From the NCBI RefSeq assembly GCF_000975155.1, contig NZ_BBRG01000001.1, positions 1,066,313 to 1,130,312 of the forward strand: a stretch of DNA of 64,000 bases, given 5' to 3'. Below, in pieces: positions 1,668 through 26,312 of this stretch; positions within the stretch are counted from its first letter, which is position 1; each line of letters opens with the position of its first letter. Below the pieces are notes generated by a model. That model was given only the letters and a program-made list of their open reading frames with translations, was not told the DNA's origin and made no database searches. The position numbers were made by a program, and so were the translations under genes. The DNA comes from Demequina globuliformis (lineage in GTDB: Bacteria; Actinomycetota; Actinomycetes; Actinomycetales; Demequinaceae).

Positions 1668-5913
<4,246 letters not shown>

Positions 5914-6124: not shown

Positions 6125-6136
6125 TCGGTTGCCAAA
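6117..6136. promoter_or_regulatory. LacI-family operator, copy 1
   Basis: TTTGTCAATCGGTTGCCAAA is a 20-bp palindrome with a central CG, matching in 8 of 10 half-site positions. The same element, 17 of 20 identical, occurs upstream of the ABC operon at 12934-12953. The central CG dyad with flanking AA/TT is typical of LacI-family sugar repressors. Confidence 0.75.
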
Positions 6137-6244
6137 CGTTGCTTGAGTGGCATTGCAAGGGCCCGTGCGACCCGTCCGATGGAAACGAAGCCCCTGGAAG
6201 GAGTTCACGGCCTGAGCGCCGTCCGGGTCATGTCCCGGTCAGCC

Positions 6245-7543: not shown

Positions 7544-7545
7544 TG

Positions 7546-8406: not shown

Positions 8407-10202
8407 CGCGAGGCTCCCTCGGTCGGCTTGCCCACGGAGACGGGCGGATCGGTTCGGACGGTGTCCTCGTCGAGGATCGCGTTGAGCAGCATGGTGGTGT
8501 ACTCGTGCTGTGGATTCGCGAAAACGTCGATGGCCTCGCCAGTTTCAACCACTTCGCCCTCCTTCATGACGCAGATCCGGCTGCAAATGTCGGCGACGAC
8601 GCCGAAGTTGTGTGTCACGAGGATGATCCCCATACCCATCTCCTGTTGGAGGTCCCGCAGGAGATCGAGAATGTCCGCTTGCACAGTCACGTCTAGAGCC
8701 GTGGTCGGTTCGTCGGCGATGAGAATCTTGGGCTCGGTTGCAACAGCCCCCGCGATCAACACACGCTGTGCCATTCCGCCCGAGATCTCATGCGGGTATG
8801 AATCAAAGGTGCGACGGGGATCGGGGATGCCGACTCTCTCGAGCAACTCAAGCGCCCTCGACTTCGCTTCCCGCTTGGAGAGCCCCGTTGCGACCCGGAT
8901 ACCCTCCACGAGCTGGCTGCCCACGGTGTAAACAGGATCGAGGTTGGACATTGGCTCCTGGGGTACGTACGCAATCGCATCGCCGCGGAGCTTCCGCAGA
9001 GTCGACTCGGGCGCACCGAGAATCTCCGTGCCGTCAATCCGCACCGAGCCACGGGTGACGATCGCTTCGTTGGGAAGCACGCCGAGCACACCGAACGCGG
9101 TTTGCGTCTTGCCCGAGCCTGACTCACCGACGAGGCCGACGGTTTCACCAGGCTTGAGGTCGAGCGAAACCCCTCGGACGACTTCGTTCAATGCTCCCGA
9201 CGGTGACGGATACGCGATGCCCAGGTCGCGGATCGAGAGCAGTGCGGGAGTGTCCTCCGACTCGGCATCTGCCTCAAAGCCATCTACAAGTTTCGCGACC
9301 GCGATCTTCTGCGCCTTTGGCTGAGCCCCCTGCAAGGTGTCCCGGAGTGCGTTACCGAAGAGCACGATGCACGCGTTCATGACACCGAGCGTGAGCGCAG
9401 GCCACAGATACTGCGTCGGCGCGAGTCCGATGTTGCGGAAGCCCTCAGAGATCATCGCTCCGAACGAGGGGATGCTCAGTGAGCCGACTCCGAGGAAGGC
9501 GAGTCCCGCTTGCGTCGAGATCGCCGTTCCACACAGGAATGCGGTCGCGATGACGATCGGTCCACGCACGACTGACAACACGTGTCGACGCAGAATCCTC
9601 GAACTCGTCACGCCCGACACCTTGGCGGCATCGACGTAGAGCTCGCGACTCACGCCGACCGTCATATTTCTCACGATGCGGTAGATACCAGGCGACAACA
9701 GCACGCCGAAGACCAGCATCGTTGCGCGGTAATCTCCGCCCGTCAGTGGCATCAGGAGGATCAGCAGCAGGATGCCTGGGAACGTCATGATCAAGGTGAA
9801 CGTCCACTCAGTCACGCCCCGGAGGCGCTCGAAGTAGCCGCCAACGAGACCGAAAGCCGTGCCAATCGTGAGTGCAACGCTCGCGCCGATCAGTGCGGAA
9901 ACCACCGCGGTGTTGATCGAATGTAGGAGCCTCGCGAGGATATCCCTGCCTGCTTGGTCAGCCCCTAACGGGTAGCCCTCGGTTCCCGGAGGCGCGTTGA
10001 CAACGTAGAGATTGGCCTCGTTCGGATCGTGCTGGGCGATCACGTTCGCCAGCAGACCCGCGATGATCATCAGGATCAGGATGGAGCCGGTAATGACCGC
10101 CTGCGGGTCGCGCACGAGGCGTGCGAGTGCGCCCTTACGAACTTCCTCGCCATCAGTCTCCGACGGCTGCACGACCGTGCTGTCGCTAGGGGTGGAGGTC
10201 AT
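8403..10202 (-). CDS. Fused ABC permease and ATPase (OppC-OppD type)
   Basis: A 599-residue fusion. Residues 1 to about 300 form a DppC/OppC permease: N-terminal segment followed by the BPD_transp_1 region with an EAA-like motif (AAKVSGVTSSRILRRHVLP-type context). Residues about 320-599 form a full ATPase with Walker A GESGSGKTQ, signature SGGMAQR and Walker B LIADEPTTALD. Permease-ATPase fusions are known in actinobacterial Opp/Dpp systems. It overlaps the upstream permease by four bases and the downstream ATPase by four bases, so subunits are tightly coupled. It pairs with the separate permease and OppF-like ATPase to form a heteromeric importer. Confidence 0.92.
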   Translation of the reverse strand: MTSTPSDSTVVQPSETDGEEVRKGALARLVRDPQAVITGSILILMIIAGLLANVIAQHDPNEANLYVVNAPPGTEGYPLGADQAGRDILARLLHSINTAVVSALIGASVALTIGTAFGLVGGYFERLRGVTEWTFTLIMTFPGILLLILLMPLTGGDYRATMLVFGVLLSPGIYRIVRNMTVGVSRELYVDAAKVSGVTSSRILRRHVLSVVRGPIVIATAFLCGTAISTQAGLAFLGVGSLSIPSFGAMISEGFRNIGLAPTQYLWPALTLGVMNACIVLFGNALRDTLQGAQPKAQKIAVAKLVDGFEADAESEDTPALLSIRDLGIAYPSPSGALNEVVRGVSLDLKPGETVGLVGESGSGKTQTAFGVLGVLPNEAIVTRGSVRIDGTEILGAPESTLRKLRGDAIAYVPQEPMSNLDPVYTVGSQLVEGIRVATGLSKREAKSRALELLERVGIPDPRRTFDSYPHEISGGMAQRVLIAGAVATEPKILIADEPTTALDVTVQADILDLLRDLQQEMGMGIILVTHNFGVVADICSRICVMKEGEVVETGEAIDVFANPQHEYTTMLLNAILDEDTVRTDPPVSVGKPTEGASR

Positions 10203-11143
10203 GAGTAGATCCTCGCCTTCGGGTTGAGCCAGCCATTGGCAAGATCGGTCAGCAGATTGACACTCACAGTCATGCCCACTCCGAACACTGTGAGTCCCAT
10301 AAGAACAGGGAAGTCGCCTTGGAGTGCGCTGTTAAAGCTGAACGTTCCAAAACCGGGCAAGGCGAACACCTGCTCGATGATCAGGGCGCCACCAAACATG
10401 TTGATGAATGTCAGACCGAAGACTGTGAGTGCGGGACCCGCAGCGTTGCGAAGTGCGTGCTTGTAGACGATGGTTCGGGCCGAGACTCCGCGCGTACGAA
10501 GAGTACGAACGTAGTCCTTGCGGAGTTCATCGATCATCGTCCCTCGGACCTGATTGGCAATGTTGGCTGCGCCACCGATAAAGAGCGCGATGACCGGAAT
10601 GGTGATCGACTTCAGCCACCCGGATGGGTCGTCGCCGAACCTGACATACCCCGTTGCGGGCAACCAGCCCAGGTTGATCGCGAGCACGACGGTAAGAAGA
10701 ATTGCGATCAGCAGATTCGGGACGAGATAGCCGAAGAGCATGATGCCTTGCGCTGCCTTGTCCGCTCCACCGCCGCGCGATGCGGCGAACGTGCCGAGGA
10801 AGACCGCGATGATCGTGGCGATGATGAGCGCGGGTACGACGATGGATAGCGTGACGAACAGGCGCGGCGGGATCGCGTCAGCCACTGGCTCCTGCGTGTA
10901 GAACGAGCGACCGAGATCACCCTGGAACACACCTGTGAGCCAGTCGACGTACTGGACGACGACCGGGCGATCAAGCCCATAGTCGGCACGGACCGCCGCA
11001 ATGGTCTCAGGGGTGGCACTGGCACCCAGACGGACGGCGATGACGCTGTCGAAGGAGAAGCTCAGGAGCCAGTACGTGATGAACGCAACGAGAATGAACA
11101 GCACAAACCCGGAGGCGAGTCGGCGCGCGGAGTAGATCAGCAT
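10199..11143 (-). CDS. ABC transporter permease (OppB/DppB type)
   Basis: A 314-residue inner-membrane subunit with about six transmembrane helices. The N-terminal region (LASGFVLFILVAFITYWLL) and the YGLDRPVVVQYVDWL segment are typical of DppB/OppB, as is the cytoplasmic coupling region DYVRTLRTRG. It forms the translocation pore with the permease half of the downstream fusion. The spacing to the upstream binding-protein gene (75 bases) contains a strong hairpin that could reduce read-through. Confidence 0.93.
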   Translation of the reverse strand: MLIYSARRLASGFVLFILVAFITYWLLSFSFDSVIAVRLGASATPETIAAVRADYGLDRPVVVQYVDWLTGVFQGDLGRSFYTQEPVADAIPPRLFVTLSIVVPALIIATIIAVFLGTFAASRGGGADKAAQGIMLFGYLVPNLLIAILLTVVLAINLGWLPATGYVRFGDDPSGWLKSITIPVIALFIGGAANIANQVRGTMIDELRKDYVRTLRTRGVSARTIVYKHALRNAAGPALTVFGLTFINMFGGALIIEQVFALPGFGTFSFNSALQGDFPVLMGLTVFGVGMTVSVNLLTDLANGWLNPKARIYS

Positions 11144-11171
11144 TATCAGAAGCCTCGGCTAGTGGTGATTC

Positions 11172-11207
11172 CAGGGCTGGGAGCACCTGTAGGCGCTCCC
11201 AGCCCTG
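11172..11207 (-). terminator. Intercistronic hairpin between binding protein and permease genes
   Basis: A perfect 13-bp stem (11172-11184 with 11195-11207) and a 10-base loop. There is no U-run after it on the minus strand, so it looks like a partial attenuator or 3'-end stabiliser that would raise the amount of binding protein over membrane subunits, as in many binding-protein operons. Confidence 0.6.
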
Positions 11208-11218
11208 ATTTCGAAAGG

Positions 11219-12790
11219 CTACTCAGCCACGCCGTAAAGGGTGACGGAGGGGAAACTGTTGGTCGTCGTCCCCGAGTAGGTGTACCCCTCGTGCACGCCG
11301 ATCAACCGGCTTGAGTTCACGATCGGTGCGTCCCAAGCGTTCTCCACAACCCACGTGTTGACCTCCTTGGCCAGCGGGATCTGCGCCTCGGGATCGACCG
11401 TCGTGGACAGCTCGTCGAGGAGTGCCGTCAGCTCGTCATCGGTGGTGTGGAACGGGTTTTGGAAGGCGTCCTCGGTGTACTGGTTGCCAAACAATCGTGC
11501 AGGACCGGCGTAACCGTCGGGCCAGATCGCCATGGGGTACTGGGCGGAGATAATTGCCTGGCCGGTGTTCTGAGCGGGAATTGAGTCCCATGTGACGGTG
11601 ATTCCAATGTCGGAGAGCGCCTGGCCAACGACGGGATCGAGGGTCTGCGAGTAAATGATGCTCGGCATAGTGACCGCGAAGCCATCAGCGTAGCCGGCTT
11701 CCGCCATCAGCTCCTTGGCCTTTTCAAGGTCGTACGGGTAGGTGTCGTTGAGCTCCTCCACGTAGACATTGGTGTCGGGGAAGGCGATCTGCGCGACTGC
11801 CTCGCCCCGGCCCTGCGAAACGCCTTCGACGATGGCTTCACGGTTAATTGCGTAGTTGATCGCCTGGCGCACGCGAACGTCTGCGAGGGCCGGCACGATG
11901 GTGCCCTCACGGTCGAGAATCTTGAGGTTCTGAAGCCCCGCACCGGGGATCTCGGTAGCGGTGATGCCGGTCGATTCGTCAATGGTTCCGGAGATGATGT
12001 CGCCTACATTGATCTCGCCAGACTTCAGTGCGTTCTCGAGTGCCGTCGAGTCAGCAATCACCTTGACCGTGACAGTCTCGAACGGGTACGCGTCGGCGTT
12101 CCAGTAGTCCTCACGCTTGTTGAGGACATACTGAGAGCCCGCTACCGTCGCGTCTGCGTCGAGAGTGTAGGCGCCCGAACCGACGGGGTTCGTGGGTGCA
12201 TCCTCGTTGGCGATGGTGTCATCGTTTGCGATGGCGCCGATTGCTTTGCTCAGGCTATCGAGGAACGAAGCGTCCGGCTGCGAGAAGTTGATGACGATCG
12301 TCGAGTCGTCGGGCGCCTCGACGGATGACACGGCGCTGACTTCGCCCGAGAGGGGGCCAGCTGTCGTCGTAAGGAGGTCGAGCGTGGCCTTGTAGTCAGC
12401 AGCGACGACTGGGTCACCATTCGAGAATGTCATGCCGTCACGCAGGTGGAGTGTAAGAGTGAGTCCGTCTTCCGAGTACTCCCATGACTCTGCCGCGGCA
12501 GGGACGGGCAGCCCATCGTCGCCGGGAACGATGAGGCGGTCATAGATCGCCGACCATACGAGCGCGTCGGTGCCGTTGGCGAGATTTGTGGTGTCGAACC
12601 CTTGGGGCTGGCGCGACACGGCGATGGCCAGAGTGGTCGGCGCGTCCGACGGTGCCGCGGACTCGGTGGTGCCGTTGGTGTCTTCGTCGTCGGACGTACC
12701 CGAGCAAGCGCTCGTCATAAGCAGGGCTGTCGCGGCGGCTGCAAGAACACCGGCGCGCACGCGCCGGGTCGGCGATGAGTTGATCCGCAT
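11219..12790 (-). CDS. Extracellular solute-binding lipoprotein (SBP family 5)
   Basis: Captures substrate for the ABC importer at the outer face of the membrane. The 523-residue protein begins with a twin-arginine-containing n-region, a hydrophobic core and a lipobox ending at Cys29 (LLMTSAC), followed by an acidic, Ser/Thr-rich linker. The remainder matches the family 5 (OppA/DppA-like) fold, with the family stretch DLEKAKELMAEAGYADGF and the INREAIVEG context. Start ATG 12790 is preceded by AAAGGAG. First gene of the operon; the LacI-type operator is 144 bases upstream. Family 5 proteins bind peptides, nickel or oligosaccharides; the glycosidase neighbours favour oligosaccharides. Confidence 0.92.
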   Translation of the reverse strand: MRINSSPTRRVRAGVLAAAATALLMTSACSGTSDDEDTNGTTESAAPSDAPTTLAIAVSRQPQGFDTTNLANGTDALVWSAIYDRLIVPGDDGLPVPAAAESWEYSEDGLTLTLHLRDGMTFSNGDPVVAADYKATLDLLTTTAGPLSGEVSAVSSVEAPDDSTIVINFSQPDASFLDSLSKAIGAIANDDTIANEDAPTNPVGSGAYTLDADATVAGSQYVLNKREDYWNADAYPFETVTVKVIADSTALENALKSGEINVGDIISGTIDESTGITATEIPGAGLQNLKILDREGTIVPALADVRVRQAINYAINREAIVEGVSQGRGEAVAQIAFPDTNVYVEELNDTYPYDLEKAKELMAEAGYADGFAVTMPSIIYSQTLDPVVGQALSDIGITVTWDSIPAQNTGQAIISAQYPMAIWPDGYAGPARLFGNQYTEDAFQNPFHTTDDELTALLDELSTTVDPEAQIPLAKEVNTWVVENAWDAPIVNSSRLIGVHEGYTYSGTTTNSFPSVTLYGVAE

Positions 12791-14130: not shown

Positions 14131-14622
14131 ATGGCCGAGATCTACGAGGTCAACATCCTTGATGAACCCGGTCTCTACGCGGTTCGAGACGCCGAAGGCG
14201 TCTGCTACGTAGACAGCCGCGTCACCACTCACGCACCTGGTTTGTGGGAAGATCCCCATTCGCGTCCCGAGCTCGTTATCCGAACGCGCGGCGGCGTCTA
14301 CGATCTCCAGCTTCTCCAGGCGATGGACGTCAATTGGTACGACGACGACGTCCCCGACCCAGATGACGACGAGAGCGCAACACCGCCGCGCTGGGTCCTC
14401 CGACGTGGCATGGTCCACATGTTCAGGTGGACCGAGAAAGTCGGCCAAGGTTTCCACTTCGCGCATTGGGTTCAAGCCACGTGCATCGACATCTGCCGCA
14501 TTCCTTCGCTGCCGTTCATGGACCCACGAAGGGAGGTCGACCTGCTCGAATTCCTACGAACCGAGTCCGGTGTCGTCGCCGCGCTCGCCAGGCTCCATGA
14601 CCGACTCGACGAGATCGAGTGA
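14131..14622 (+). CDS. Small unrecognised family protein, plus-strand member (paralogue Z)
   Basis: A 163-residue acidic protein clearly related to the gene at 17973-18428. Both begin TEVNI/YEVNI, then D-x-PGLY-x-V, then YVD-[ST]-R, then a PP-x-WVLR-x-G block about 100 residues in. This copy has an extra acidic stretch (residues about 72-84, nearly all D/E/P) and a longer C-terminal helix. No catalytic motif, signal peptide or membrane segment is visible. It is a distance of about 1.6 kb from, and opposite in strand to, the six-member operon at 17536-20163, so the family has at least seven members here. Function unknown. Confidence 0.75.
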   Translation: MAEIYEVNILDEPGLYAVRDAEGVCYVDSRVTTHAPGLWEDPHSRPELVIRTRGGVYDLQLLQAMDVNWYDDDVPDPDDDESATPPRWVLRRGMVHMFRWTEKVGQGFHFAHWVQATCIDICRIPSLPFMDPRREVDLLEFLRTESGVVAALARLHDRLDEIE

Positions 14623-14822: not shown

Positions 14823-15416
14823 GTGCTCTTGAGTTTCTCGATTGAACTGCCTGACGGCTTGGCCTCCGAGAGGGAGAAGCAGAGTCTTGAGGTGGAGTTG
14901 GTGCGTGCGCTCCGCCGCACGCGTCGGCACTCGACGGCGACTACTGGTGGTGTCGATGCTCTGTTGGAAATGTCGGGCCTTGACGCCGAGCACTTGGCGT
15001 CGGCGAAAGCGAAGCTGAAGCATCCAGGGGTGGCGTCGGCAGCAACGACCGCCGATGTGGTTGCGCGTCAGGTTCGGGTCGTGAACTCGACCATCAGCAC
15101 GGCCGCTGTGGCGAAGATCCTGGGCGTCACGCCGACCACGGTGACCCGCAAGGTTGAAAGCAAGTTCCTCCTGGCGCGCCGTAGCGGTGCTCGGCGAGCC
15201 TTTGCCTTCCCGGCTTGGCAGTTCACTGACCACAGTGCGCTGCCCGGATGGGACGAAGTAGCACCTGCGCTGACGGGCGTGGAATGGCGTGCGGTTGAGG
15301 CGTTCGTGACGGCGCCGCGCGAAGAACTCGACGATGCGTCAGTCCGGGATTGGCTTATCGCAGGCAAAGACCCATCAGTTGTGGTGAGCCTTGCCGAGAG
15401 CCTTGTGCGTTGGTGA
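14823..15416 (+). CDS. Antitoxin of a RES-type module (MbcA/Xre-like)
   Basis: A 197-residue protein. The C-terminal half has the order expected for RES-associated antitoxins: a helix-turn-helix-like segment (about residues 98-118, AAVAKILGVTPTTVTRKV) and a final domain WRAVEAFVTAPREEL...WLIAGKDPSVVVSLAESL, which is the toxin-binding antitoxin domain. Its start is GTG 14823 with GGAG about nine bases upstream. The RES toxin reading frame begins one base after its stop, the normal antitoxin-first order. It likely represses the module through the upstream inverted repeat. Because the toxin gene is frameshifted, this antitoxin may now be solitary. Confidence 0.75.
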   Translation: MLLSFSIELPDGLASEREKQSLEVELVRALRRTRRHSTATTGGVDALLEMSGLDAEHLASAKAKLKHPGVASAATTADVVARQVRVVNSTISTAAVAKILGVTPTTVTRKVESKFLLARRSGARRAFAFPAWQFTDHSALPGWDEVAPALTGVEWRAVEAFVTAPREELDDASVRDWLIAGKDPSVVVSLAESLVRW

Positions 15417-15417
15417 C

Positions 15418-16025
15418 GTGAAGGTCGCCTACCGTCATCCGTCGTCACTGACGTTCCGTGATGGGGATTTCATCGACTTTGACGGCGCCCTCGTACGGAT
15501 CGCTCGGACATCGGGTGAGTATGTGTTGGCGTGGAATGAGGGCAGATCTTGGGGCCCCTGCCCACGAGGCGTTGGGATCCACACCGTCCGACCGCCATCA
15601 ACCAGCCCGATCGTGCGGTGCTTTACGCGGCAACGACGCTCGCCACCGCTGTTGCCGAGGCCTTCCAGAGCCTCCGCTATATCGACACCGTCTCCGGCGA
15701 CCCGTGGATCTTCACCTTCACTCCGACGCGCCCTCTCCGGCTGCTCAATATTGAGGGCAGTTGGGCGGTTCGCAACGGAGCTGCGGCAGCGCTGGCGCAC
15801 GGTGACAAGCGCATCACTCGTGCGTGGACGCGAGAAGTGTTCGTGCAGCAGCCAGGACTCGACGGCGTATGGGCGCCATCGACGCTGGTCGGTGAAACCG
15901 TGACGCTCTTCAGCGACGGGATCGCGGCGATGCCGGTGCGCGCACATCAGTCGATTGCTGCGGACGACCCTGCGGCGCGGGTGGTTCTTGAGGAGATTGC
16001 CGACCAGATCGGCTATCGCATCTGA
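15418..16025 (+). pseudogene. RES-domain toxin gene, frameshifted
   Basis: RES toxins degrade NAD+ and stop growth. The N-terminal part reads from GTG 15418 (MKVAYRHPSSLTF ... ARTSGEYVLAWNEGRSWGP) in one frame. The rest reads in another frame (GPLPTRRWDPH ... AVLYAATTLATAVAEAF ... ESSLIGY-type end, stop 16025). The two parts join smoothly at about 15550-15560 in the run GGGGCCCC if one base is restored; the order of motifs (ART-x-W-x(5)-GPLP-x-RWDPH, then LYAA...A-x-AEAF) is exactly that of RES proteins. A one-base deletion or a sequencing error in the G/C run explains it. An internal restart at TTG 15549 would lack the N-terminal arginine/tyrosine region of the active site. Confidence 0.8.
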
Positions 16026-16199: not shown

Positions 16200-16994
16200 C
16201 TAGCCGGAGATGTTCAGGTACTCGACGGTCAGTGTGGCGGTATCGAGTAGGGCGACGCCGTGTGTGTCGTCTCCGTCGCGGGCGAGGCCACACACCCGTA
16301 CGGGCGTATCAGCTTCCGGGTCGGCGAAGGGCTGGTGCCAGGTGTCGTTGACGGGGACGTGGTAATGGCCGTGGATAAGGAGTGAGGGCCGCACGGCGGC
16401 GACGGCTTGGGTGAAGCGCAGGCGGCTTTGGTGGGCGTCGTTGACGTCGTGGAGGTCGAACTTCGCGGTGAGGCTGCGTTCGATGGACGGCACTGGGTAG
16501 GGGGCGTCGTGGGAGATCATCACGTCCGCATGACCGCCCTCGATGGTCGCTTCGACATCGGCGTCGGTGACGGCTTCTTGTGGCCACCACAGGGTGCGCG
16601 CTCCACGCATCCCCTCGAGCCGCAACCGGTAGGAGCGGTCAACAGATCCGGCGCCGCCGAGCCATACGAAGGTGCGCCCATCGTGTTCGCTGCGGTGTCC
16701 TCGCGGGGCGAGAAGGATCCGTTCCCGAAACTCGAGCCATCCGACCGCCACCGTCTCAAGTTGGTCGATCTGGTCGTAGTTGTCGTGGTTGCCCGGTGCG
16801 ACGTACATGGTCATACCGAGTTCAGCGAGGTGATCGTTGACGTGGTGCCAGGCTCTGCCTCCCGTGGGTGAGAAGCCGATGCCGAGATCACCGACTTGGA
16901 TGACGGTGGTGATACCTCGCGCGTGGAGGGCGTCGAGGGAACGAGCCAGCCACGAGTGGTTGGCGTGGACGTCGCCGATGAGTCCAATCAGCAT
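16200..16994 (-). CDS. Calcineurin-like metallophosphoesterase
   Basis: A 264-residue protein carrying the complete dinuclear metal site of the family: GDVH (Asp8, His10), GD (35-36), GNHD (68-71), SHD (His162) and HGHYH (208-212). Likely a soluble phosphodiesterase or phosphatase; small proteins of this fold act on nucleotides, RNA ends or phosphoproteins. I start it at 16994 (MLIGLIGDVH), because the upstream in-frame start at 17129 would overlap the HAD gene by about 140 bases. It overlaps the HAD gene stop by seven bases and is last in the paralogue operon. Its pairing with a HAD phosphatase suggests phosphate-end processing of RNA or DNA, which is inference. Confidence 0.88.
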   Translation of the reverse strand: MLIGLIGDVHANHSWLARSLDALHARGITTVIQVGDLGIGFSPTGGRAWHHVNDHLAELGMTMYVAPGNHDNYDQIDQLETVAVGWLEFRERILLAPRGHRSEHDGRTFVWLGGAGSVDRSYRLRLEGMRGARTLWWPQEAVTDADVEATIEGGHADVMISHDAPYPVPSIERSLTAKFDLHDVNDAHQSRLRFTQAVAAVRPSLLIHGHYHVPVNDTWHQPFADPEADTPVRVCGLARDGDDTHGVALLDTATLTVEYLNISG

Positions 16995-17539
16995 AGGAAT
17001 GCCTCGATTTCGTTGAAGTGCTCCGGCGTAAGTCCGCAGCGGGTGTTGGGGCAGATGGTGAGCAGGCGGTCGGTGTTGAGCCATGCGAGCTCGCCGTCGT
17101 TTCCGGAGTTGCGTTGGCTGGTTTGCCACTGGGTGATCTCGTCGTCGATCCAGACGACCCGGTCGTCACTGTGTTGGAGGGCGTGGCGCACGTGGGCGGC
17201 TTTCCACCAGTCGAGACTGGATGGAGTGTTGCGGACGTGCCAGGGGGCGACGCGCCAGTCGTGTCCGATTCCGATGTTGGGTGCCAGGAGTTCGACGGCA
17301 TAGTTTCCCCAGGTGGTGCACCACCACATGTGGACGTCCGGAGTGTTTTCGATCATGTGCAGGGAGTCGATGGCTGCGAGATTCCAGGTGAGAGTCCCGG
17401 ATCCCATGGGTGCACCGAAGTTCACGTGTCGCCTTTGCCACGTGTCCGGGGGCCAGTGTTCGAGATCGTCGGGACTGTCAGGCTGGGCGTTGATGACGCC
17501 GTCGACGTCGATATAGACCTGCGTGAGGGCGCCGGTCAT
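16988..17539 (-). CDS. HAD-superfamily phosphatase, Swiss-Army-Knife (HAD_SAK) type
   Basis: A 183-residue protein with HAD motif I DVDGVIN (nucleophile Asp11, Asp13), motif II in WCTTWG (73-78), a conserved Lys113 and motif III WIDDE (130-134). This set, including the W-x-T-x-W and WIDDE context, matches the HAD_SAK domain first described in RNA-repair 'Swiss Army Knife' proteins. It overlaps the upstream paralogue by four bases (ATGA) and the downstream phosphoesterase by seven. A dephosphorylating enzyme on nucleic-acid ends is a plausible role from family knowledge; the substrate is not visible from sequence. Confidence 0.8.
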   Translation of the reverse strand: MTGALTQVYIDVDGVINAQPDSPDDLEHWPPDTWQRRHVNFGAPMGSGTLTWNLAAIDSLHMIENTPDVHMWWCTTWGNYAVELLAPNIGIGHDWRVAPWHVRNTPSSLDWWKAAHVRHALQHSDDRVVWIDDEITQWQTSQRNSGNDGELAWLNTDRLLTICPNTRCGLTPEHFNEIEAFLC

Positions 17540-17979
17540 GGCCGCACTCCAAGGGGCGCGCCGTCGAATGCTCCGAGGAGGTCCTCGAGCCAGGCCGGCA
17601 CGCTGGTGTGTTGGATGAGTTCGCGGCACGGACTGGCGTGTAGCCAGTAGATCGGCAGCCTGCCTGGGGTGCGGTCTGGGGAGAGAAGCATGTGTTGGGA
17701 GCCGGCGCGCAGAGTCCATGGTTGGACATCGAAGTAGTCGATCTCGTCTCCCGGAATCCACCCGTCGGCGTCCCATGCGACTTCTTCGGCCTGGAGCCAC
17801 AGGAGTTTGTGCCACGACGCGTCGAGCCTCAGCGGGGTGGAGTCTCCACCTGCCAGGCGTAGATACCGTGGGGTGGAGGTGCGTGCGTCGCACCAATACA
17901 CGCTGCTGGACTGCAACGAGCGCACTTCATACAGTGCAGGCTCGGCCCGCACGTTGAATGCCAAGGGTGCGGTCACCAT
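17536..17979 (-). CDS. Small unrecognised family protein (paralogue F)
   Basis: 147 residues. Shares the family layout: E-P-ALY-EV near residue 14, VYW-CDART (compare YYVDTR in the neighbour), PRYLR, DASWHKLLWL, then QPWTLRAGSQHML at about residue 86-98, and a C-terminal stretch with PxxxxxxL. Overlaps the upstream paralogue by seven bases and the HAD gene by four. No catalytic signature, signal sequence or membrane segment. Trp-rich and probably all-beta from its alternating hydrophobic pattern (inference). Confidence 0.7.
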   Translation of the reverse strand: MVTAPLAFNVRAEPALYEVRSLQSSSVYWCDARTSTPRYLRLAGGDSTPLRLDASWHKLLWLQAEEVAWDADGWIPGDEIDYFDVQPWTLRAGSQHMLLSPDRTPGRLPIYWLHASPCRELIQHTSVPAWLEDLLGAFDGAPLGVRP

Positions 17980-18428
17980 GTCTCGATCCCGTACTTCTTG
18001 AGTTTGGTTTCGGGGCCGATCGCGAGGTCTTCGTCGGAAGGCTGCGCCTCAAGTTGGTCGATCGCTGCGGTGATGCGTGGACACCAAGGAAACGCGTACG
18101 TGGTCCCGTCGGGGTTGTAGTCCTCACACGCCATGAGCGGTCGGGCGCCGACTCGGAGCACCCATGGAGGGGTGTCATCCCAATCGACGTCTCCCGGTGC
18201 CAGCGGCACACCGTCGCGCTCAAACAGCGGCAGCGAGACAAGGTCGGTGAGATCCACCCACTGGCCGTCAGTCTCATCAAACTCGGTGGCGTACTGAATG
18301 AGGTTCGGGTTCGCACGCAGCACGCGAGGATGGGCGAACCGGGTGTCCACGTAGTACGACACGGGCGACGAACTCAGCACCAGGTAGAGACCGGGCTGGT
18401 CCATGATGTTCACTTCCGTGAGGGTCAT
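17973..18428 (-). CDS. Small unrecognised family protein (paralogue E)
   Basis: 151 residues, the member closest to paralogue Z on the plus strand: TEVNIMDQPGLY, SYYVDTR, HPRVLRA, QWVDLTDL, DVDWDD, PPWVLRVGARPLM. I start it at ATG 18428, one base after the upstream stop (TGAGATG), instead of the much longer frame running to 18752, whose extra N-terminus overlaps the neighbour. Acidic, soluble, no known domain. The conserved blocks are spaced as in the other members, supporting a common fold. Confidence 0.75.
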   Translation of the reverse strand: MTLTEVNIMDQPGLYLVLSSSPVSYYVDTRFAHPRVLRANPNLIQYATEFDETDGQWVDLTDLVSLPLFERDGVPLAPGDVDWDDTPPWVLRVGARPLMACEDYNPDGTTYAFPWCPRITAAIDQLEAQPSDEDLAIGPETKLKKYGIETW

Positions 18429-18429
18429 C

Positions 18430-18891
18430 TCAGTCACCGCCGTCCCGCTGACCGTGGTCGGTGCACTCGGTGGGCCTCGGAGGTGGGGTCGAGGGCTTGA
18501 AGTGATGGCCGGCCGGGAGCACGGCCTGTGGCCACTCTTGCACTGGGACCTCGGAGTTGAACTCCCAGTCGACGGCAGACAGCGCTGTCGCGATCGGCAC
18601 CTCGATGGTGTGGACGTCGTCGCCGTCACGGACGAACACCGAATGCGCCATACCCACGCGCAGTACGGCCGGCTCCTCCTGACCGTGATCGTCGGGCCCG
18701 GACATGACCCACAACAGGGATGCCCGCAGGCCCGCGAAACCCGTCGCTGCACCCTTAGTTGAGACTAGGCGGACGTGGTCGCGGCCGACCCCGGTCAGTT
18801 CGAACTCGATCCTCTGTCCGTCCTCGCAGTCCATCACAAACGTGCCCACAGCGTTTCGCACCTGCACCCGCGTCAATTCGTACTCCTGCAT
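18430..18891 (-). CDS. Small unrecognised family protein (paralogue D)
   Basis: 153 residues, divergent member. The family blocks are recognisable as AVGTFVM (for G-x-Y-x-V), RIEFELTG (for the YVD strand), ASLLWVM and EEPAVLRVGMAHSVFV (for PWVLRxGxxHxx). The C-terminal 30 residues are proline- and charge-rich. Start at ATG 18891 overlaps the upstream stop by three bases; a further upstream ATG at 18915 is possible but would extend the overlap. Function unknown. Confidence 0.65.
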   Translation of the reverse strand: MQEYELTRVQVRNAVGTFVMDCEDGQRIEFELTGVGRDHVRLVSTKGAATGFAGLRASLLWVMSGPDDHGQEEPAVLRVGMAHSVFVRDGDDVHTIEVPIATALSAVDWEFNSEVPVQEWPQAVLPAGHHFKPSTPPPRPTECTDHGQRDGGD

Positions 18892-19331
18892 CACACTTCT
18901 CCCTTCTGAATCCACGCCACCTCCGCCACCTCACCGGTGGCCGTATCCGCCGTGAGCTGGATGATTTCGGCACAGGTCGCCAGACCCAGCCGTTGGGTTT
19001 GGCCGCGCGACATCACCCACACCGTCGGGCTGTACAGCCGCACCCGTCCCACCTTGAGGTCCCCGAATGTCCGCTCGGCCATAGCGATGGGGTGGCCAAG
19101 GACGGTGTGAGTGGCCGGCGCCGACGTCACCCACATCAGCGGCCACCACCAGCCATGCCAGTCCTGGCCGTCTCGTGTCCGCTGCGGCATGAACGCCACT
19201 TGTGGGTGCTCCAGGTCCCGCAGATCGACATACATGTCACCGCCCGCGATCGAGCGGACACGGAACACCCCCTCGTCACGGTGGAGGTTCAACGCGGTGC
19301 AGTAGTCGCGCTCGGGATGCCTGACGGTCAT
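18891..19331 (-). CDS. Small unrecognised family protein (paralogue C)
   Basis: 146 residues. Family blocks: EGVFRVRS, DMYVDLRDLEHPQV, WWWPLMWV, then SPTVWVMSRGQTQRL at about residues 104-118. The middle holds a Trp-rich insertion (GWWWPLMW). It overlaps both neighbours (ATGA with the upstream gene). It ends in a Glu-rich tail. No known domain; membership rests on block order and operon position rather than on strong pairwise identity. Confidence 0.65.
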   Translation of the reverse strand: MTVRHPERDYCTALNLHRDEGVFRVRSIAGGDMYVDLRDLEHPQVAFMPQRTRDGQDWHGWWWPLMWVTSAPATHTVLGHPIAMAERTFGDLKVGRVRLYSPTVWVMSRGQTQRLGLATCAEIIQLTADTATGEVAEVAWIQKGEV

Positions 19332-19729
19332 AGCGCACCCACCCAGTCAGGGACCTCATCGAGGCACTCGATGCGTGCAGCCTCGGTCGACAACACCCCA
19401 TGCAAGGGTCCGTGATCGGGATGCATATCGGGCGTCGCGAACACATGACAGGCGCCCTCGGCGAGAACCCAGGACTCGATCGCACTCCCGGGACGACCAC
19501 GCCCAAAGGGACTGACCCCGTCGTACCCGTCATGCAGGCAGTACAGATTCGCTAGGGGCTGCCATGCAGCATCAAATCTGTTGGAGTACGAGATCACCGA
19601 ACGCGCCCGAAAGTACCGCGCGCACGCCCGGCCGCGACGTACGTCGACGACGTATCGCGTGCCCGAAGCGGTGTGCACGACCAGCACTCCACGGTGCTTA
19701 AGCAGGTTGATGGACGTCTCGGCAGTCAT
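19328..19729 (-). CDS. Small unrecognised family protein (paralogue B)
   Basis: 133 residues. Family blocks: RGVLVVHTASGTRYVVDVRRG, ARYFRA, FDAAWQPLANL, DGYDGV, ESWVLAEGACHVF. Shares with paralogues A and F the Asp-x-x-Trp-x-x-Leu segment before the WVL block. Four-base ATGA overlaps on both sides imply coupled translation and near-equal dosage of the set. Confidence 0.7.
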   Translation of the reverse strand: MTAETSINLLKHRGVLVVHTASGTRYVVDVRRGRACARYFRARSVISYSNRFDAAWQPLANLYCLHDGYDGVSPFGRGRPGSAIESWVLAEGACHVFATPDMHPDHGPLHGVLSTEAARIECLDEVPDWVGAL

Positions 19730-20163
19730 GACTGCGGCCCGTCAGAGAAGTCGACCTCATCCGGGCCACGAGTCCTCACACGCAACTCAGGCATCTCATC
19801 GAGGACCTCGATGCCTTCCAGCGTCCTCGGAACCCAAAACCCGTCAAAGAGCGGGTTGCCGCCAGGCAACTCGTAGACGAGCCTGTGACGCCGCCCCACC
19901 ATCAAAACCCACGCCTCATGCGGCGTCGCGCGCTGCTCGGGAGTCAGCCACCCGTCGTCGTACGGCTCGACCCTGAGGAGTCGTAGCCATCGGTTGTCCA
20001 GCGGATCCTCGCCCGTATTGCCCGCGCCACGCACCCGCATGACCGACGGGACATCGCCGCGCTGATCGATCGCATACGTCGTGGACGACGCCGACAACAA
20101 CAGCCACGCACCGCCGGCCGCACCGCCCTCAAGGTCGACCACTCGAAGCCCGTCACTGGCCAT
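19726..20163 (-). CDS. Small unrecognised family protein, first gene of the operon (paralogue A)
   Basis: 145 residues. Blocks: GAWLLLSASSTTYAIDQRGDVP, MRVRG, DNRWLRLLRVEPYDDGWLTPEQ, EAWVLMVGRRHRLVYE. The DGW-x(2)-P/G-E motif is shared with paralogue F (DGWIPGDE). Start ATG 20163 is preceded by GGGGAGG; an upstream in-frame GTG/ATG at 20202 lacks such a site. The operon promoter must lie in the comparatively AT-rich stretch at about 20240-20310. Confidence 0.7.
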   Translation of the reverse strand: MASDGLRVVDLEGGAAGGAWLLLSASSTTYAIDQRGDVPSVMRVRGAGNTGEDPLDNRWLRLLRVEPYDDGWLTPEQRATPHEAWVLMVGRRHRLVYELPGGNPLFDGFWVPRTLEGIEVLDEMPELRVRTRGPDEVDFSDGPQS

Positions 20164-21684: not shown

Positions 21685-22080
21685 TCATGCTCGACTACCT
21701 CCTGTCAGACGTCTCCAAAGGCGGCGGGGCCATGACGAGTGCGCGCCGATTGCAGCGTCGCGCAATGCGTGATCTGACTGTCGGTTGACGGCAGCTCGAT
21801 CGTCGCTCATTGTTCCGGCCCATTGGATCACCCCGCGCGTGATCACGTAGTGCGATCTGCAGGGCAGTCCCCAATTGCCAATTGAGGGGGACAGCGAGAT
21901 CTCGCCGTCAAACGTGGCTTTCCATTGGGTAGGCGAAAGCGGGGTGACCACCTCGCGTTCGCAGCCGCAGGCGCATAGGTGCACGGCGGTGGAGTACTCG
22001 TACGAGATATAGAGGGTGTCGGGGTCGAGCTTGTGCGGGACGTGCGTCACGAAGGCCGGCACGACGCGACGAGTTCTCAC
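21685..22080 (-). CDS. DUF6527 family protein of a ubiquitin-like cassette
   Basis: 131 residues. The core has the family features: HLCACGCEREVVTPLSPTQW (two C-x-C pairs near residues 36-40), FDGEISLSPSIGNW, then PCRSHYVITRGVIQWA. The conserved Cys/His set (CxC, C..SHY) suggests metal binding; DUF6527 proteins are found next to Multiubiq and E1/E2 genes and have been suggested to act as peptidases for the Ubl. It begins with GTG 22080, overlapping the E1 stop by four bases. The C-terminal 45 residues (basic, RRLWRRL) are not part of the conserved core. Role in maturation or removal of the Ubl is inference. Confidence 0.8.
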   Translation of the reverse strand: MRTRRVVPAFVTHVPHKLDPDTLYISYEYSTAVHLCACGCEREVVTPLSPTQWKATFDGEISLSPSIGNWGLPCRSHYVITRGVIQWAGTMSDDRAAVNRQSDHALRDAAIGAHSSWPRRLWRRLTGGSRA

Positions 22081-23249
22081 GACTTATCCTCGTCACAACG
22101 GAGTTCGTCGGTGTAGATCTTGTAGATGGTCTCGCGGGAGGGCGTGTGAGTGGCGTAGTAACCGAGGTAGCGCTTCCACTGCACGACCGCGTAGGCGGCG
22201 TTGAGCATGTTGAGTTCGGCGGTTTGGATGTTGCGGTCGTAGTCGGGATCAAAGGGGACTGTCCCGCTACCCGTCGTAGGCGTCGGATCTTCGGGGAGCA
22301 ACATAGTGGAGCAGACGAGACCCGACAGGCCGGAGGGCTCCTCGTCGACGCCCATTCCGACGGTGACGACGGGTATGCCACGCTCATGCAACCACGTCAT
22401 GATTGCGTGCTTCGCCGGCGCGTCGGCTGCGGCGAGGAAGACGAAGGTGCAGTCGCTGAGCAGTTGGAGGTTGTCCTCGTCGAGGAAGACCGGGTGGGCC
22501 GTGATGCCTGTGTGCATGTGGCCATAGAGGCCGGCGAAGTACTCGGCCTTGTTGAGTCGGACCCTAAGAGCGTCGATGTCGGCGGCTCCCGGAGCGCGGA
22601 AGGCGTTGTGGTTGTCGAGAACGTCACCGTCAAGGAGCACAATCCTGTCTACCCAGGTCTTCGCGACCTGGTCGAGGATGTAGCTGCCCGTGCCGCCAAC
22701 GCCGACGATGCCGATTGTGTGGCCGCGAAACTTGCTGTTGAGTTCGGCCAGGCCCGCCCGGGATGTGGCGGAGTCGCGGTAGATGAATGGGAGCCCTTCT
22801 TCGACTTCCTGCCATGCCGCTCCCGGGGTGAGGTTGACCGTGGAGTCGACAGCGATCGCAGGGTGTCCAAGGTTCCGCGCATACGAGGTGATCTTGTCGT
22901 AGTGGTTTTCGTACTTCCCTTGGCGTTTTGGCTTGAGGGAGATCATGAACTGAGCGGTCAGACCCGGTCCAATGACACGACGGTCGGGGGACGGACCCCC
23001 CAAAGGGGTTCCGTCTTCGTGGTGCGGTTGCTCGCCGACGAACCAGATCCGGTGGTCGCCGGATTGGTCGACGGCGGTGTCGCCGCTGAATGTGACCGGA
23101 AAGGCGAGCTGGCCGTACGCGACCGTCCTTGCTTTGGTCACGTACGGCACTTGATTGACGACGAGGTGGCCTCCGACGAGGCTCAGGTCGTAGCCCTCGT
23201 CGAGCAGGCGCACCGTATGCGGGTCATGAGCGAACGGTGACGTAGGCAT
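22077..23249 (-). CDS. E2-like/E1 fusion, ThiF-family adenylyltransferase
   Basis: 390 residues. Residues about 1-165 match the E2-like domain (DUF6791) found ahead of E1 domains in Multiubiq operons (GYLVVxxVPYV-like start, then ISLKP...YENHYDKITSYA). Residues about 175-390 are a ThiF/E1 domain with the ATP-binding GVGGTGS (183-189), LLDGD (206-210), NAFR and NKAEYF. The N-terminal E2-like part contains no cysteine at all, so it cannot form a thioester there; the only cysteines are at about 267, 313 and 385. It should adenylate the C-terminus of the Ubl encoded just upstream. Its start overlaps the Ubl gene by 26 bases. Confidence 0.85.
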   Translation of the reverse strand: MPTSPFAHDPHTVRLLDEGYDLSLVGGHLVVNQVPYVTKARTVAYGQLAFPVTFSGDTAVDQSGDHRIWFVGEQPHHEDGTPLGGPSPDRRVIGPGLTAQFMISLKPKRQGKYENHYDKITSYARNLGHPAIAVDSTVNLTPGAAWQEVEEGLPFIYRDSATSRAGLAELNSKFRGHTIGIVGVGGTGSYILDQVAKTWVDRIVLLDGDVLDNHNAFRAPGAADIDALRVRLNKAEYFAGLYGHMHTGITAHPVFLDEDNLQLLSDCTFVFLAAADAPAKHAIMTWLHERGIPVVTVGMGVDEEPSGLSGLVCSTMLLPEDPTPTTGSGTVPFDPDYDRNIQTAELNMLNAAYAVVQWKRYLGYYATHTPSRETIYKIYTDELRCDEDKS

Positions 23250-23514
23250 CGAAAACCATCCCCTTCTTCACCGGGACGCTCTGGCCGGGCCGAAGGCTGC
23301 CCTGGCCATTGCCGTGTACTCCTCGCGAGAACTCGACACGGGCTTCCTCGTTCGCGGCGACAGGCTGGTTCGGGTAAGTCAGTGCGAGTACCTGCTCGAA
23401 GCTGATGCTGCGCTCGGTCCACTCGTGGGGCCGGGTGTTGATGATGATCGTGGTCGCGGGCTTGCCGCGGTCGTTGTCGTCCGCAGGAGACGCCTTCTGC
23501 TCGGGTATGGTCAT
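23224..23514 (-). CDS. Multiubiquitin-type ubiquitin-like protein (single domain)
   Basis: 96 residues. After a charged, disordered N-terminus (about 20 residues), the remainder matches the Multiubiq fold: TIIINTRPHEWTERSISFEQ (strand, then helix), LALTYP, VEFSRGVHGNGQGSL and PGQSVPVKKGMVFDAYVT. This is the beta-grasp Ubl that the adjacent E1-like enzyme would activate. Only one domain copy is present. The chain ends VTVRS, not in GlyGly; whether the C-terminus is trimmed is unknown. First gene of the Ubl-E2/E1-DUF6527 operon and divergent from the HigB gene at 23648. Confidence 0.85.
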   Translation of the reverse strand: MTIPEQKASPADDNDRGKPATTIIINTRPHEWTERSISFEQVLALTYPNQPVAANEEARVEFSRGVHGNGQGSLRPGQSVPVKKGMVFDAYVTVRS

Positions 23515-23647: not shown

Positions 23648-23983
23648 GTGGAGATCGGCTTTCGTCGCGAGAGCGAGGCAGCACTCTTCAACGACTCATC
23701 TCAACTTCGGCGCAAGTACGGAAAGGACTGCGCCGAACGGATCGAGGCGCGCCTTGCCCAGATCGATGCCGCGCCATCTCTCGCAGCGCTCGCCAAGCTC
23801 CCCCAAGCTCGCTTGCATCAGCTCGTCGGGAATCGCGACGAGCAGTTTTCGCTTGACCTCAAGCACCCACTTCGTTTGATCGTCGAGGTCGCTGATGACC
23901 CAGTGCCACGCCTCGCGGACAATGGAATCGACCGGCAGCAGGTCACGAGGCTCGCATTCGTCGAGATCACGGACACCCACTAA
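23648..23983 (+). CDS. HigB/RelE-like toxin
   Basis: 111 residues with the RelE-superfamily pattern: short strand, helix (ALFNDSSQLRRKYGKDCAERIEARLAQI), AALAKLPQARLHQL, then strands with FSLDLKHPLRLIVEV and a final VTRLAFVEITDTH. Probably a ribosome-dependent mRNA endonuclease. GTG 23648 is chosen because the family begins with the strand VEIGFRRE; ATG starts farther upstream would run through the operator. It sits 19 bases ahead of the antitoxin gene, toxin-first as is normal for HigBA modules. Confidence 0.8.
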   Translation: MEIGFRRESEAALFNDSSQLRRKYGKDCAERIEARLAQIDAAPSLAALAKLPQARLHQLVGNRDEQFSLDLKHPLRLIVEVADDPVPRLADNGIDRQQVTRLAFVEITDTH

Positions 23984-24002
23984 CTAGACGGGAGAGGCAG
24001 AC

Positions 24003-25121
24003 ATGACCGCTGACGCAACTGCACTGCAGTGGCACGCGTATGCCCCCAAACGCACACCGCACCCCGGCGTGACATTGCGCGAAACTCTCGAAGCGCTCAA
24101 CATGTCGCAAAGCAAGCTCTCCACACGCACTGGCCTCACGCAGAAGCACATTAACCAGATCATCCAGGGCAACGCGTCCATCTCGCCTGCGACCGCTTTG
24201 CTCCTCGAAAGGGCGACGGGCGTCCCCGCCGACCTGTGGAACAACCTGGAGTCTCGCTACCAGGACCTCAAACTGCGCCAGGAAGAGGCAGTCGAGCTCG
24301 CTGAGCGAGCCTCGTGGCTAGAGCGGGTGCCCGTGACAGAGTTGCGCAAGCGCGGGTTCATCACCGCGACCATGCGCGACAAGGGACTACTGGTTCAACA
24401 AGTCATGGAATTCTTCGGTGTTGGCTCCCTTGATGCGTGGGAGCAAACATGGAACCGACCGGCCGCAGCATTTCTGCAGTCAAGCGCCTACGAAATCAAT
24501 GCTGGCGCCGTCGCCGCTTGGCTACGACTTGGCGAGATCGCGGCCTCAAAGCAAGACCGCGAGTACGGCGAGTTTGATAAGGCAGCTCTTCGGGCGGCCC
24601 TCCCCGGCCTCAGAGCACTCACCCTTGAGCGCCCGAAGGACTTCTTCCCTAAACTCACGCAAATCTGCGCCGACATTGGAATCGCTGTCGTACTTGTTCC
24701 AGACATCCCCGGAACGCGCGCAAGCGGCGCAACGCGCTTTCTGTCACCGCAACGCGCACTCGTGCAACTGAGCAACCGCGGAAAGCGCAATGACAAGTTC
24801 TGGTTCGCCTTCTTTCACGAGCTAGCCCACCTGCTCCTTCACGGCAAGAAGGGCACGTTTGTTCACATCGACCCCAATGGCGACTCGAGCCCCGACACGG
24901 GATACGAGCAGGAGGCCAACGACTACGCAGGCCGTCTTCTGATCCCGTCAGAGGCAGAAGCGCGGCTCCGCGCGATACGCACCCCCGATGAGGCCCAGCG
25001 GCTCGCGAGCGATATCGGCGTAGCCCCCGGAATCGTCGCAGGACGAGTGCAGCGCGAAACGCAGGACTGGACATTCGGTATGTCACTGTGCACGAAGTTT
25101 GAGCTAAAGACGCGGACCTGA
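24003..25121 (+). CDS. HigA-type antitoxin fused to ImmA/IrrE metallopeptidase
   Basis: 372 residues. Residues about 20-95 are a HigA/Xre helix-turn-helix domain (LRETLEALNMSQSKLSTRTG then HINQIIQGNASISPATAL). Residues about 215-340 form an ImmA/IrrE-type zinc peptidase with HELAH (272-276) and the downstream EANDYA glutamate. Such fusions are known and may add regulated self-cleavage or substrate cleavage to ordinary repression. RBS GGGAGAGG precedes ATG 24003. It likely binds the three-half-site operator at 23588-23623 and neutralises the toxin encoded before it. Confidence 0.88.
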   Translation: MTADATALQWHAYAPKRTPHPGVTLRETLEALNMSQSKLSTRTGLTQKHINQIIQGNASISPATALLLERATGVPADLWNNLESRYQDLKLRQEEAVELAERASWLERVPVTELRKRGFITATMRDKGLLVQQVMEFFGVGSLDAWEQTWNRPAAAFLQSSAYEINAGAVAAWLRLGEIAASKQDREYGEFDKAALRAALPGLRALTLERPKDFFPKLTQICADIGIAVVLVPDIPGTRASGATRFLSPQRALVQLSNRGKRNDKFWFAFFHELAHLLLHGKKGTFVHIDPNGDSSPDTGYEQEANDYAGRLLIPSEAEARLRAIRTPDEAQRLASDIGVAPGIVAGRVQRETQDWTFGMSLCTKFELKTRT

Positions 25122-25172: not shown

Positions 25173-26312
25173 CTAGCCGTCAACAACTTGCCCCGTCTGC
25201 ATTGGACCATGCTGGTTCAGACCGACGAACCTTCCGGGGAACGCGATGCCGGTCTTGCGCTCGGGCAGACTCTGGCCTCCCAAGGTGATTCGGTCCCTGA
25301 ACCCGGTGGGGAGGCCAAAGTCATCGGTTCTAGGAGTTGGGCCATCTGGGTACAGCCCTGGATGAGGGGGCGCAGTCAAGCCGTCGACCTGGTCACCCCG
25401 GCTCTCGAAGTGTTCGCGCGCGAGTCCATGGAAGAGCGCACCGTGGACCCATGCCACCATCTCGCACTCTTGCAGAACCTCGTCGATGTCAATCTGCACC
25501 TGCGACACCTCAAGCCCTGGGTTGTCTTTTCTCCGACCCGGGGAACGGTGCAGCGCTTCGATGACGGGAGCGCGTATTACGTCGGTCGTCTTCGGACCGT
25601 TGATGTCACTCAGCCTGATGCTTCCCTCAGGGGTTGGCGCGGCAGTCGTGATCGCTAGCCTCATGTCATCTCGCGCGGCGACAGCGAGTCCATGCTTGGT
25701 CTTGTTGTACACCCCATGCAGATAAAAATCGGACCTGCTCAGGAGAAGAGATGCGTAGTGAAGCCAAGACTCGAATACATCGAGCGTCGAGACGACGTCA
25801 TCCTTGTCGCGACGGAGGTAGATTTCTGGCGCTGGGAGAAGTAGATCGGCAAGCCGTTGGCCAGTGGCCTCTATCTTCAATGCGTCCCAAAGCATCCGGT
25901 TGACGTCGCGCACTGTCGTCGGTCCCTCCGAGACCTTCAGCCAAATACAACGCGGCTGCGGGGTCGAGTCATCGAGCGCGGCCCAAGCGAGCCTGACGGT
26001 GTTTTCGGCCAGTTGCTGTCGGAGCACGAAGGCATCTAGTGCGAGTTGTGTAGCGGCGATTCTGGCAGGAGACCGACGGTCGGATGGGGCGGTGCGCAGG
26101 TCATGCTCTCCAACTACATCGCTCGGCGCCTCAGTCCCTTGCTGCACAGCGCCCGGCGCGGAGTCGGAATCAGCAGAATGTGCGCGCCAAGTACGCATCA
26201 TGGACACGCGTGACTTGGTGAGCGCGAAGGGATCAGACGAGAGAAAAGTGTCATCGAGGGCTTCAGCCTGTGCCTCACTGAGATCAGCGCCAGTTGCTTC
26301 TGGATAGATCAC
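25173..26312 (-). CDS. Unrecognised protein coupled to apeA
   Basis: 379 residues, no family recognised. Starts at GTG 26312, sharing its first base with the TAG stop of the upstream ApeA-like gene, so translation is coupled. The sequence is largely helical; around residues 200-215 it has HGVYNKTKHGL, an N-x(2)-K-H type motif seen in helical defence and HEPN-like proteins. N-terminal 90 residues are acidic and disordered. Its rigid linkage to apeA suggests a partner, regulator or second effector, but no function can be assigned. Confidence 0.7.
   Translation of the reverse strand: MIYPEATGADLSEAQAEALDDTFLSSDPFALTKSRVSMMRTWRAHSADSDSAPGAVQQGTEAPSDVVGEHDLRTAPSDRRSPARIAATQLALDAFVLRQQLAENTVRLAWAALDDSTPQPRCIWLKVSEGPTTVRDVNRMLWDALKIEATGQRLADLLLPAPEIYLRRDKDDVVSTLDVFESWLHYASLLLSRSDFYLHGVYNKTKHGLAVAARDDMRLAITTAAPTPEGSIRLSDINGPKTTDVIRAPVIEALHRSPGRRKDNPGLEVSQVQIDIDEVLQECEMVAWVHGALFHGLAREHFESRGDQVDGLTAPPHPGLYPDGPTPRTDDFGLPTGFRDRITLGGQSLPERKTGIAFPGRFVGLNQHGPMQTGQVVDG

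Follow-up and report, generated by a model that had tools for sequence, protein, structure and literature searches.

According to section 3.4.9 of PMC7824862, SAK-type HAD phosphatases and, in a few phages, calcineurin-like enzymes remove phosphates from RNA ends, and RlaP restores lost nucleotides ahead of ligation. Here we describe an operon in a 64,000-nucleotide stretch of Demequina globuliformis (assembly GCF_000975155.1, contig NZ_BBRG01000001.1, positions 1,066,313 to 1,130,312; hereafter the window) that joins genes for two enzymes of these kinds, a HAD phosphatase and a calcineurin-like metallophosphoesterase (MPE), to six genes for small proteins, A to F. The link of this small family to the two phosphoesterase families recurs across genomes. 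The most economical reading, which we favor tentatively, is that the small proteins serve as recognition or scaffold subunits of an accessory module that processes phosphate-bearing ends together with the HAD and the MPE. The analysis suggests that they are a new partner for phosphate-removing enzymes.

The operon and its recurrent phosphoesterases

The eight genes run along the minus strand from 20163 to 16200 in the order F, E, D, C, B, A, HAD, MPE. From F to MPE, successive junctions are overlaps of 4, 4 and 1 bases, a gap of 1 base, and overlaps of 7, 4 and 7 bases. Coordinates and junctions bear out the preliminary description of this locus, which reported six overlapping or abutting small genes followed by two phosphatase genes. 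The features are as follows (aa, amino acids; SW, Smith-Waterman; held-out profiles are built with the tested type excluded).

19726..20163, minus strand: F, small protein of 145 aa, F-type (C-terminal DEVDFxDGP); held-out profile E 7.7e-14, F-type tree group
19328..19729, minus strand: E, small protein of 133 aa, within the A-type group by the tree; held-out profile E 4.2e-21
18891..19331, minus strand: D, small protein of 146 aa, D-type; held-out profile E 1.7e-6, its G004 relative g4D 1.6e-5
18430..18891, minus strand: C, small protein of 153 aa, C-type, the weakest member; own E 0.19, g4C 1.2e-5, C-type group
17973..18428, minus strand: B, small protein of 151 aa; structure prediction with pLDDT 91.8, pTM 0.86 and nine strands
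17536..17979, minus strand: A, small protein of 147 aa, A-type; SW z 11.4 with B, 43% identity to the D. iriomotensis A-type protein
16988..17539, minus strand: HAD phosphatase of 183 aa, HAD_SAK_2-like; PF18143 E 1.5e-5 at 25.8 bits, DxD and DD motifs
16200..16994, minus strand: MPE, calcineurin-like phosphoesterase of 264 aa; PF00149 E 2.4e-9, phrog_1649 E 1.4e-35, motifs
14131..14622, plus strand: Z, seventh family member of 163 aa, apart from the operon; SW z 11.1 with A and 9.5 with B

The HAD protein does not reach the curated PF18143 cut-off of 27.5 bits, which related genes pass (49.4 bits for L022:7795-8376 and 37.1 bits for gp216 of phage Pumpernickel); we therefore call it HAD_SAK_2-like. 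Members of the HAD superfamily carry catalytic DxD and distal acidic DD motifs. In an alignment of 12 proteins, both motifs (YIDVDGV and VWIDDE) are intact in the window gene, and the HAD gene called in L021 is without the domain start. The MPE scores 38.4 bits against PF00149 (cut-off 21.5), and its metal-binding motifs GDxH, GDxG, GNHDN and HGHYH are intact. A sequence search of the PDB returned nothing for the MPE, one match at E 0.66 for the HAD, and no relative of the small family.

Among 44 Demequina genomes, eight carry the small family, in 26 copies (7, 4, 4, 3, 2, 2, 2 and 2). The contigs compared include those of D. iriomotensis, D. rhizosphaerae and D. soli, and relatives' genes were called by our own codon-score script rather than taken from curated annotation. 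Strong MPE matches occur in seven of the 44 genomes, six of them family carriers (Fisher p 2.7e-5, where a strong match has E below 1e-60, a cut-off chosen after viewing the table, and the next best match is 5.5e-5). The HAD query finds matches in 14 genomes, six of them carriers (p 0.008). In seven of the eight carriers, a HAD or MPE gene lies within 6 kb of family members; the G002 HAD was found via Pfam and missed by phmmer. The phosphatase association and the variable copy number, two to seven per genome, anticipated in the preliminary description thus both hold in other genomes. Four HAD copies examined away from the family, near genes that by their sequences encode a DEAD-box helicase or CNNM-like membrane proteins, perhaps mark a housekeeping locus.

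Sequence scans found one promoter-like site (shuffle mean 0.8) and six terminator-like sites (shuffles 2.5). Rfam gave no match between 12.8 and 29.0 kb of the window.

A family of distinct types and its relatives

The small proteins were described at the outset as an unrecognized family, and in the libraries searched (Pfam, NCBIfam, PADLOC-DB and PHROGs) they are; no profile search placed the members in separate known families. For A to F and Z, the best Pfam or NCBIfam match has E 0.033, PADLOC-DB gives none, and the best match from any library pairs C with a 63-residue PHROG whose function is unknown (E 0.0039). PADLOC models match none of A to F, Z, the HAD or the MPE at E up to 1. Searches of open-access literature with narrow terms turned up no description of the family.

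Pairwise relatedness was measured as Smith-Waterman scores against 300 shuffles per pair. Each of the six pairings of A, B, E and F reaches z 8.1–11.7, and C and D score at or near background against most members. Held-out profiles, assessed with 2,700 shuffled decoys (best decoy 0.07–0.26), recover all eight F-type proteins (6e-28 to 8e-14) as well as E (4e-21), D, g4D and g4C; they fail for C (best decoy 0.10), for g64C (0.11) and for the first part of a fused frame in G004 (0.6). With stricter training on A/B/E/Z-like rows only, D (4.8e-6) and g4D (6.9e-5) pass, and C, g4C and g64C fail (0.5–1.4). Homology is plain in the case of A, B, E, F and Z and modest for D, and it reaches C through its orthologue. 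We count C as a member because C, g4C and g64C form a supported tree group (98/93); judged on its own sequence, C could still be an unrelated gene. Two details of the preliminary description did not survive. E and Z, reported there as a similar pair, give z 2.4, with nine of 300 shuffles scoring as well, and both fall inside the A-type group; and the five motif blocks said to be shared by every small protein occur as a full set in E and F alone.

The family resolves into recurring types. Mapped onto a 26-row tree, labels F, A and C need one change each (shuffled means 6.5, 6.0 and 2.9), a clustering that is partly non-independent since we had assigned these labels, and D, from position and sequence before the tree. 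Support is 57/87 for the F-type group of eight, 94/93 for the A-type and 98/93 for the C-type; there is no resolved D-type group, and support is strong for three of 23 inner branches. An A-type gene directly follows F in five of the eight carriers (G002, G023, G017, G059 and G004). Gene order is F, HAD, HAD, A-like, MPE in G018 and F, A, fused frame, D, HAD in G004, in both cases with ends overlapping or at most 14 bases apart. Because types F, A and C recur and five genomes hold an adjacent F-A pair, we regard the small genes as a retained set of distinct types and not a fresh duplication; recent duplication is ruled out by the low identity and the recurring types. Ratios of dN/dS of about 0.23 (A-type), 0.55 (F-type) and 0.43 (C-type) indicate purifying selection in the three orthologue pairs compared.

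Two frames depart from the single-domain form. In G004, one frame (L025 8714-9859) holds family domains, with a C-type domain at its C-terminus, and in D. rhizosphaerae (L022 6688-7665) a family domain is fused to a ∼200-residue N-terminal part without a Pfam match. A phage or plasmid origin was also considered and set aside: tblastn with the best A-type member matched none of 50,697 phage records and none of 72,556 plasmid records, and a scan of viral contigs matched 45 stretches, none confirmed, in searches that used one query protein or a four-row alignment and that distant copies could escape.

Outside Demequina, a second group of proteins of 95–134 aa shares the opening pattern and occurs in Mycobacteriales and others. 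One, in G312, adjoins an MPE gene and was found via that MPE; a search of 245 genomes with the protein, independent of the MPE, matched six genomes including its own. Both G459 loci have an MPE downstream, and there is none at G468, at G469 or at a Tsukamurella plasmid copy. The plain Demequina profile misses three MPE-linked second-group proteins (E 0.17–0.58). In profile-profile comparison, the Demequina family and the second group match at P 7.6e-4 (probability 25%) when 26 rows are used and at 3.4e-3 (10%) when 19 are; adding G1020 and G384 rows gives 7.3e-6 (84%), a partly circular value since G384 was found with the Demequina profile. Column-shuffled profiles (100 each) reach maxima of 14.6 and 15.2 against real scores of 25.9 and 41.8.

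Run against 386 genomes of the order, the Demequina profile finds four outside the genus. In G384, a family domain and a HAD_SAK_2-like gene (E 6.8e-4, under cut-off) overlap, G1020 has two tandem proteins, one clearly second-group and one weaker, near a short family fragment, and G1102 holds nothing but split fragments close to a transposase. G1007 was excluded by judgement (no called gene, core pattern missing) despite a frame at 1.3e-5 among 355 frames. This search overturned our first reading of a genus-restricted family, drawn from 394 genomes with nine candidates scored per genome, in which the sole match besides the source genome itself was a weak one in G384. Second-group matches in G637, G766, G619, G714 and G596 were not used, nor was that in G176, where no matching gene was called in the region. 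An MPE or HAD gene is adjacent at four of the eight outside loci with a whole member, namely G312 and G459 twice (MPE) and G384 (HAD_SAK-like); the others are G468, G469, Tsukamurella and G1020.

Phage counterparts, predicted fold and genomic setting

Among phages, relatives of the MPE occur in 301 records and those of the HAD in seven. Phage Cece encodes, in order, an RlaP nucleotidyltransferase, a 2H-type protein, an MPE, an unknown protein, a window-type MPE and a HAD_SAK_2 protein. In Zooman these genes recur, interspersed with small ones, and the HAD scores 27.3 bits, just below the cut-off. Pumpernickel has an MPE, an unknown protein, a window-type MPE and a HAD_SAK_2 protein, with an annotated RNA ligase gene ∼3.6 kb upstream; the neighborhoods in Schatzie, Atuin and RadFad hold one of the two enzymes only. 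The first phage MPE is of a second type, homologues of which (33–39% identity) immediately precede the F-A pair of D. iriomotensis and that of D. rhizosphaerae. When the phage clusters were compared by blastp with the genes called in the window and in 11 Demequina loci, only the MPEs and the HAD matched. Cece gp202 (L139 4253-4798), annotated as an RNA ligase, is assigned by Pfam to the 2′-5′ RNA ligase (2H) superfamily and weakly matches Acb1 (E 4.2e-4).

The model of B, built from 14 aligned proteins, has nine strands and two short C-terminal helices and confidently predicts an all-beta fold. Its strands and weak barrel matches, rather than inspected coordinates, make it probably barrel-like. 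Foldseek gives a best E of 0.35 in the PDB and 0.093 among viral models. The best VIA-align match is a phenolic acid decarboxylase (Z 4.0, root-mean-square deviation 4.5 over 107 residues), followed by lipocalin FluA (2.8), avidins (2.5) and Sm or KOW domains (Sm chains 2.0–2.1); on this scale unrelated models often reach 7 to 8, and with every match at Z 4.0 or below we assign the predicted structure to no fold. The model of C (pLDDT 55.3) is too poor to superpose, and its strand order alone agrees with B, in an alignment dominated by other family members.

DNA similarity to a G034 stretch stops at window position 13018, and similarity to a G010 stretch starts at 28823. Between them lies an accessory stretch of ∼15.8 kb that holds the operon and conflict genes. 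By gene content it is an accessory island rich in such genes. Directly after Z, 14823-16025 (plus strand) holds a weak helix-turn-helix gene and a RES-domain gene, likely a RES-type toxin-antitoxin pair; RES proteins act on NAD. On the minus strand at 21685-23514, Multiubiquitin (PF14452, E 4e-14), DUF6791-ThiF E1-like and DUF6527 genes stand in a row and form a bacterial ubiquitin-like conjugation cluster. A weak HigB-like toxin match and an HTH_3/M78 gene follow at 23648-25121 (plus strand). The gene at 26312-27781 (minus strand) encodes an ApeA N-terminal domain (E 2.5e-28) and an Apea-like HEPN domain (1.6e-17), preceded by a gene (25173-26312) without a Pfam match. No polymorphic-toxin gene appeared among the neighbors scanned, which are a part of all neighbors. 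Outside the island, 4681-12790 carries sugar-hydrolase and peptide-transport genes with 85–95% protein identity to a G034 block, whose different chromosomal setting suggests transfer.

A putative phosphate-end module and its alternatives

We propose a phosphate-end module on the strength of the operon junctions, the co-occurrence with the MPE and HAD, the F-A pairs, the phage clusters of RlaP, 2H, MPE and HAD genes, the second MPE type ahead of F-A in two species, the enzyme roles given in PMC7824862, the outside relatives that adjoin an MPE or HAD_SAK-like gene, and the island's ApeA-HEPN and HigB-like genes. A to F and Z are divergent representatives of a single small family, predicted to be all-beta and probably barrel-like, and would be produced together with the HAD_SAK_2-like phosphatase and the MPE as an accessory module. 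An F-type and an A-type protein may form the core of a physical complex, which B, C, D and E would enlarge. The HAD and MPE would do the chemistry, removing terminal or cyclic phosphates, most likely on RNA ends; the small proteins, presumably non-enzymatic, may bind RNA. Such ends would be made by RNases of phage-host conflict and could be supplied by RNases of the island. A more specific and improbable form has up to six or seven diverged barrel paralogues assembling into hetero-oligomers, an Sm-like RNA-healing particle in phage conflict. A new superfamily spread thinly across Actinomycetes would thereby bring HAD_SAK-type and calcineurin-like enzymes to damaged RNA ends.

Several observations weigh against such a module. 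In G017, which has F and A, phmmer detects no HAD and no MPE across the 16 kb covered; the MPE is absent nearby in G004; in G018 a further HAD-MPE pair, also overlapping, has no family member with it, and G020 has a strong MPE in a genome that lacks the family. Neither enzyme is adjacent at four of the eight outside loci. Isoelectric points of 4.1–6.6 in 26 of 27 small-protein rows (9.2 in one) disfavor RNA binding. By blastp (E 1e-3), the genes called in the window and the 11 Demequina loci include no homologue of RlaP or of 2H, and family scans of some genes there found no RNA ligase.

The HAD-MPE pairs or lone MPEs without the family and the lone F-A pair in G017, together with an accessory stretch packed with unrelated conflict genes, would also suit an operon that is defense-island cargo, its small proteins and phosphoesterases co-transcribed by accretion with separate functions. 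We think this unlikely, since the same families meet in varied orders and strands across several Demequina genomes and their relatives meet an MPE or HAD in other genera. Equally, the small proteins might bind a small ligand that carries phosphate, for example a cyclic nucleotide or NAD-derived signal, which the HAD and MPE would destroy, tuning or blocking nucleotide-signaling immunity. Most of the weak structural matches are to barrels that bind ligands, the phage 2H protein weakly resembles the anti-CBASS Acb1, and the island holds a RES gene, of a family that acts on NAD; however, those structural scores are below what unrelated models often reach, and RlaP, present in the phage clusters, argues for RNA, so that we judge a ligand-based role unlikely as well.

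Diverged tandem copies of one small family, the faster evolution of the F-type and the position of Z beside the helix-turn-helix/RES pair would fit an array whose members are immunity or antitoxin variants directed at diverse toxins. Yet the types recur across species and are not mixed, the neighbors scanned, a part of the total, hold no polymorphic-toxin gene, and the HAD and MPE are left unexplained, which makes such an array quite improbable. The island setting and the weak viral coat-protein matches would agree with small proteins that act directly on phage, binding virion or phage-RNA components with the HAD and MPE as auxiliaries. For the coat-protein matches, however, E is above 0.09 and TM-scores are about 0.2, and PADLOC gives no match; we consider direct action very improbable.

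A phosphate-end module with recognition or scaffold subunits would bear on how SAK-type HAD and calcineurin-like phosphoesterases, scattered in phages and islands, choose their substrates, for which a paralogue family that travels with them offers a concrete handle. The predicted fold is confident yet unmatched, and why six diverged copies are kept and co-translated is a testable question. The locus was initially put forward as a new multi-component system; the family is indeed unrecognized, but the system is not new throughout, because the HAD and MPE are of known kinds with a phage RNA-repair setting.

Several diverged small paralogues that may act as a set recall Sm/LSm rings by analogy only; B has no supported match to that fold. 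The second group outside Demequina is shorter and without a six-gene array, but shares the opening pattern, the profile-profile match and, in G312 and G459, the MPE family alongside. The SAK-type HAD RNA-end phosphatases treated in section 3.4.9 of PMC7824862 resemble the window HAD, which is HAD_SAK_2-like with intact motifs; it differs in falling just below the Pfam cut-off, and its activity is predicted. The Microbacterium jumbo phages Cece and Zooman, and similarly Pumpernickel, differ in that the small family is absent from a profile search of their cluster genes, and the Demequina loci in turn are without RlaP and 2H. In these phages, as in the window, a HAD_SAK_2-type gene adjoins a window-type MPE gene (Cece and Pumpernickel proteins 39–40% identical to the window MPE over nearly full length), and their second MPE type also stands beside F-A in two Demequina species.

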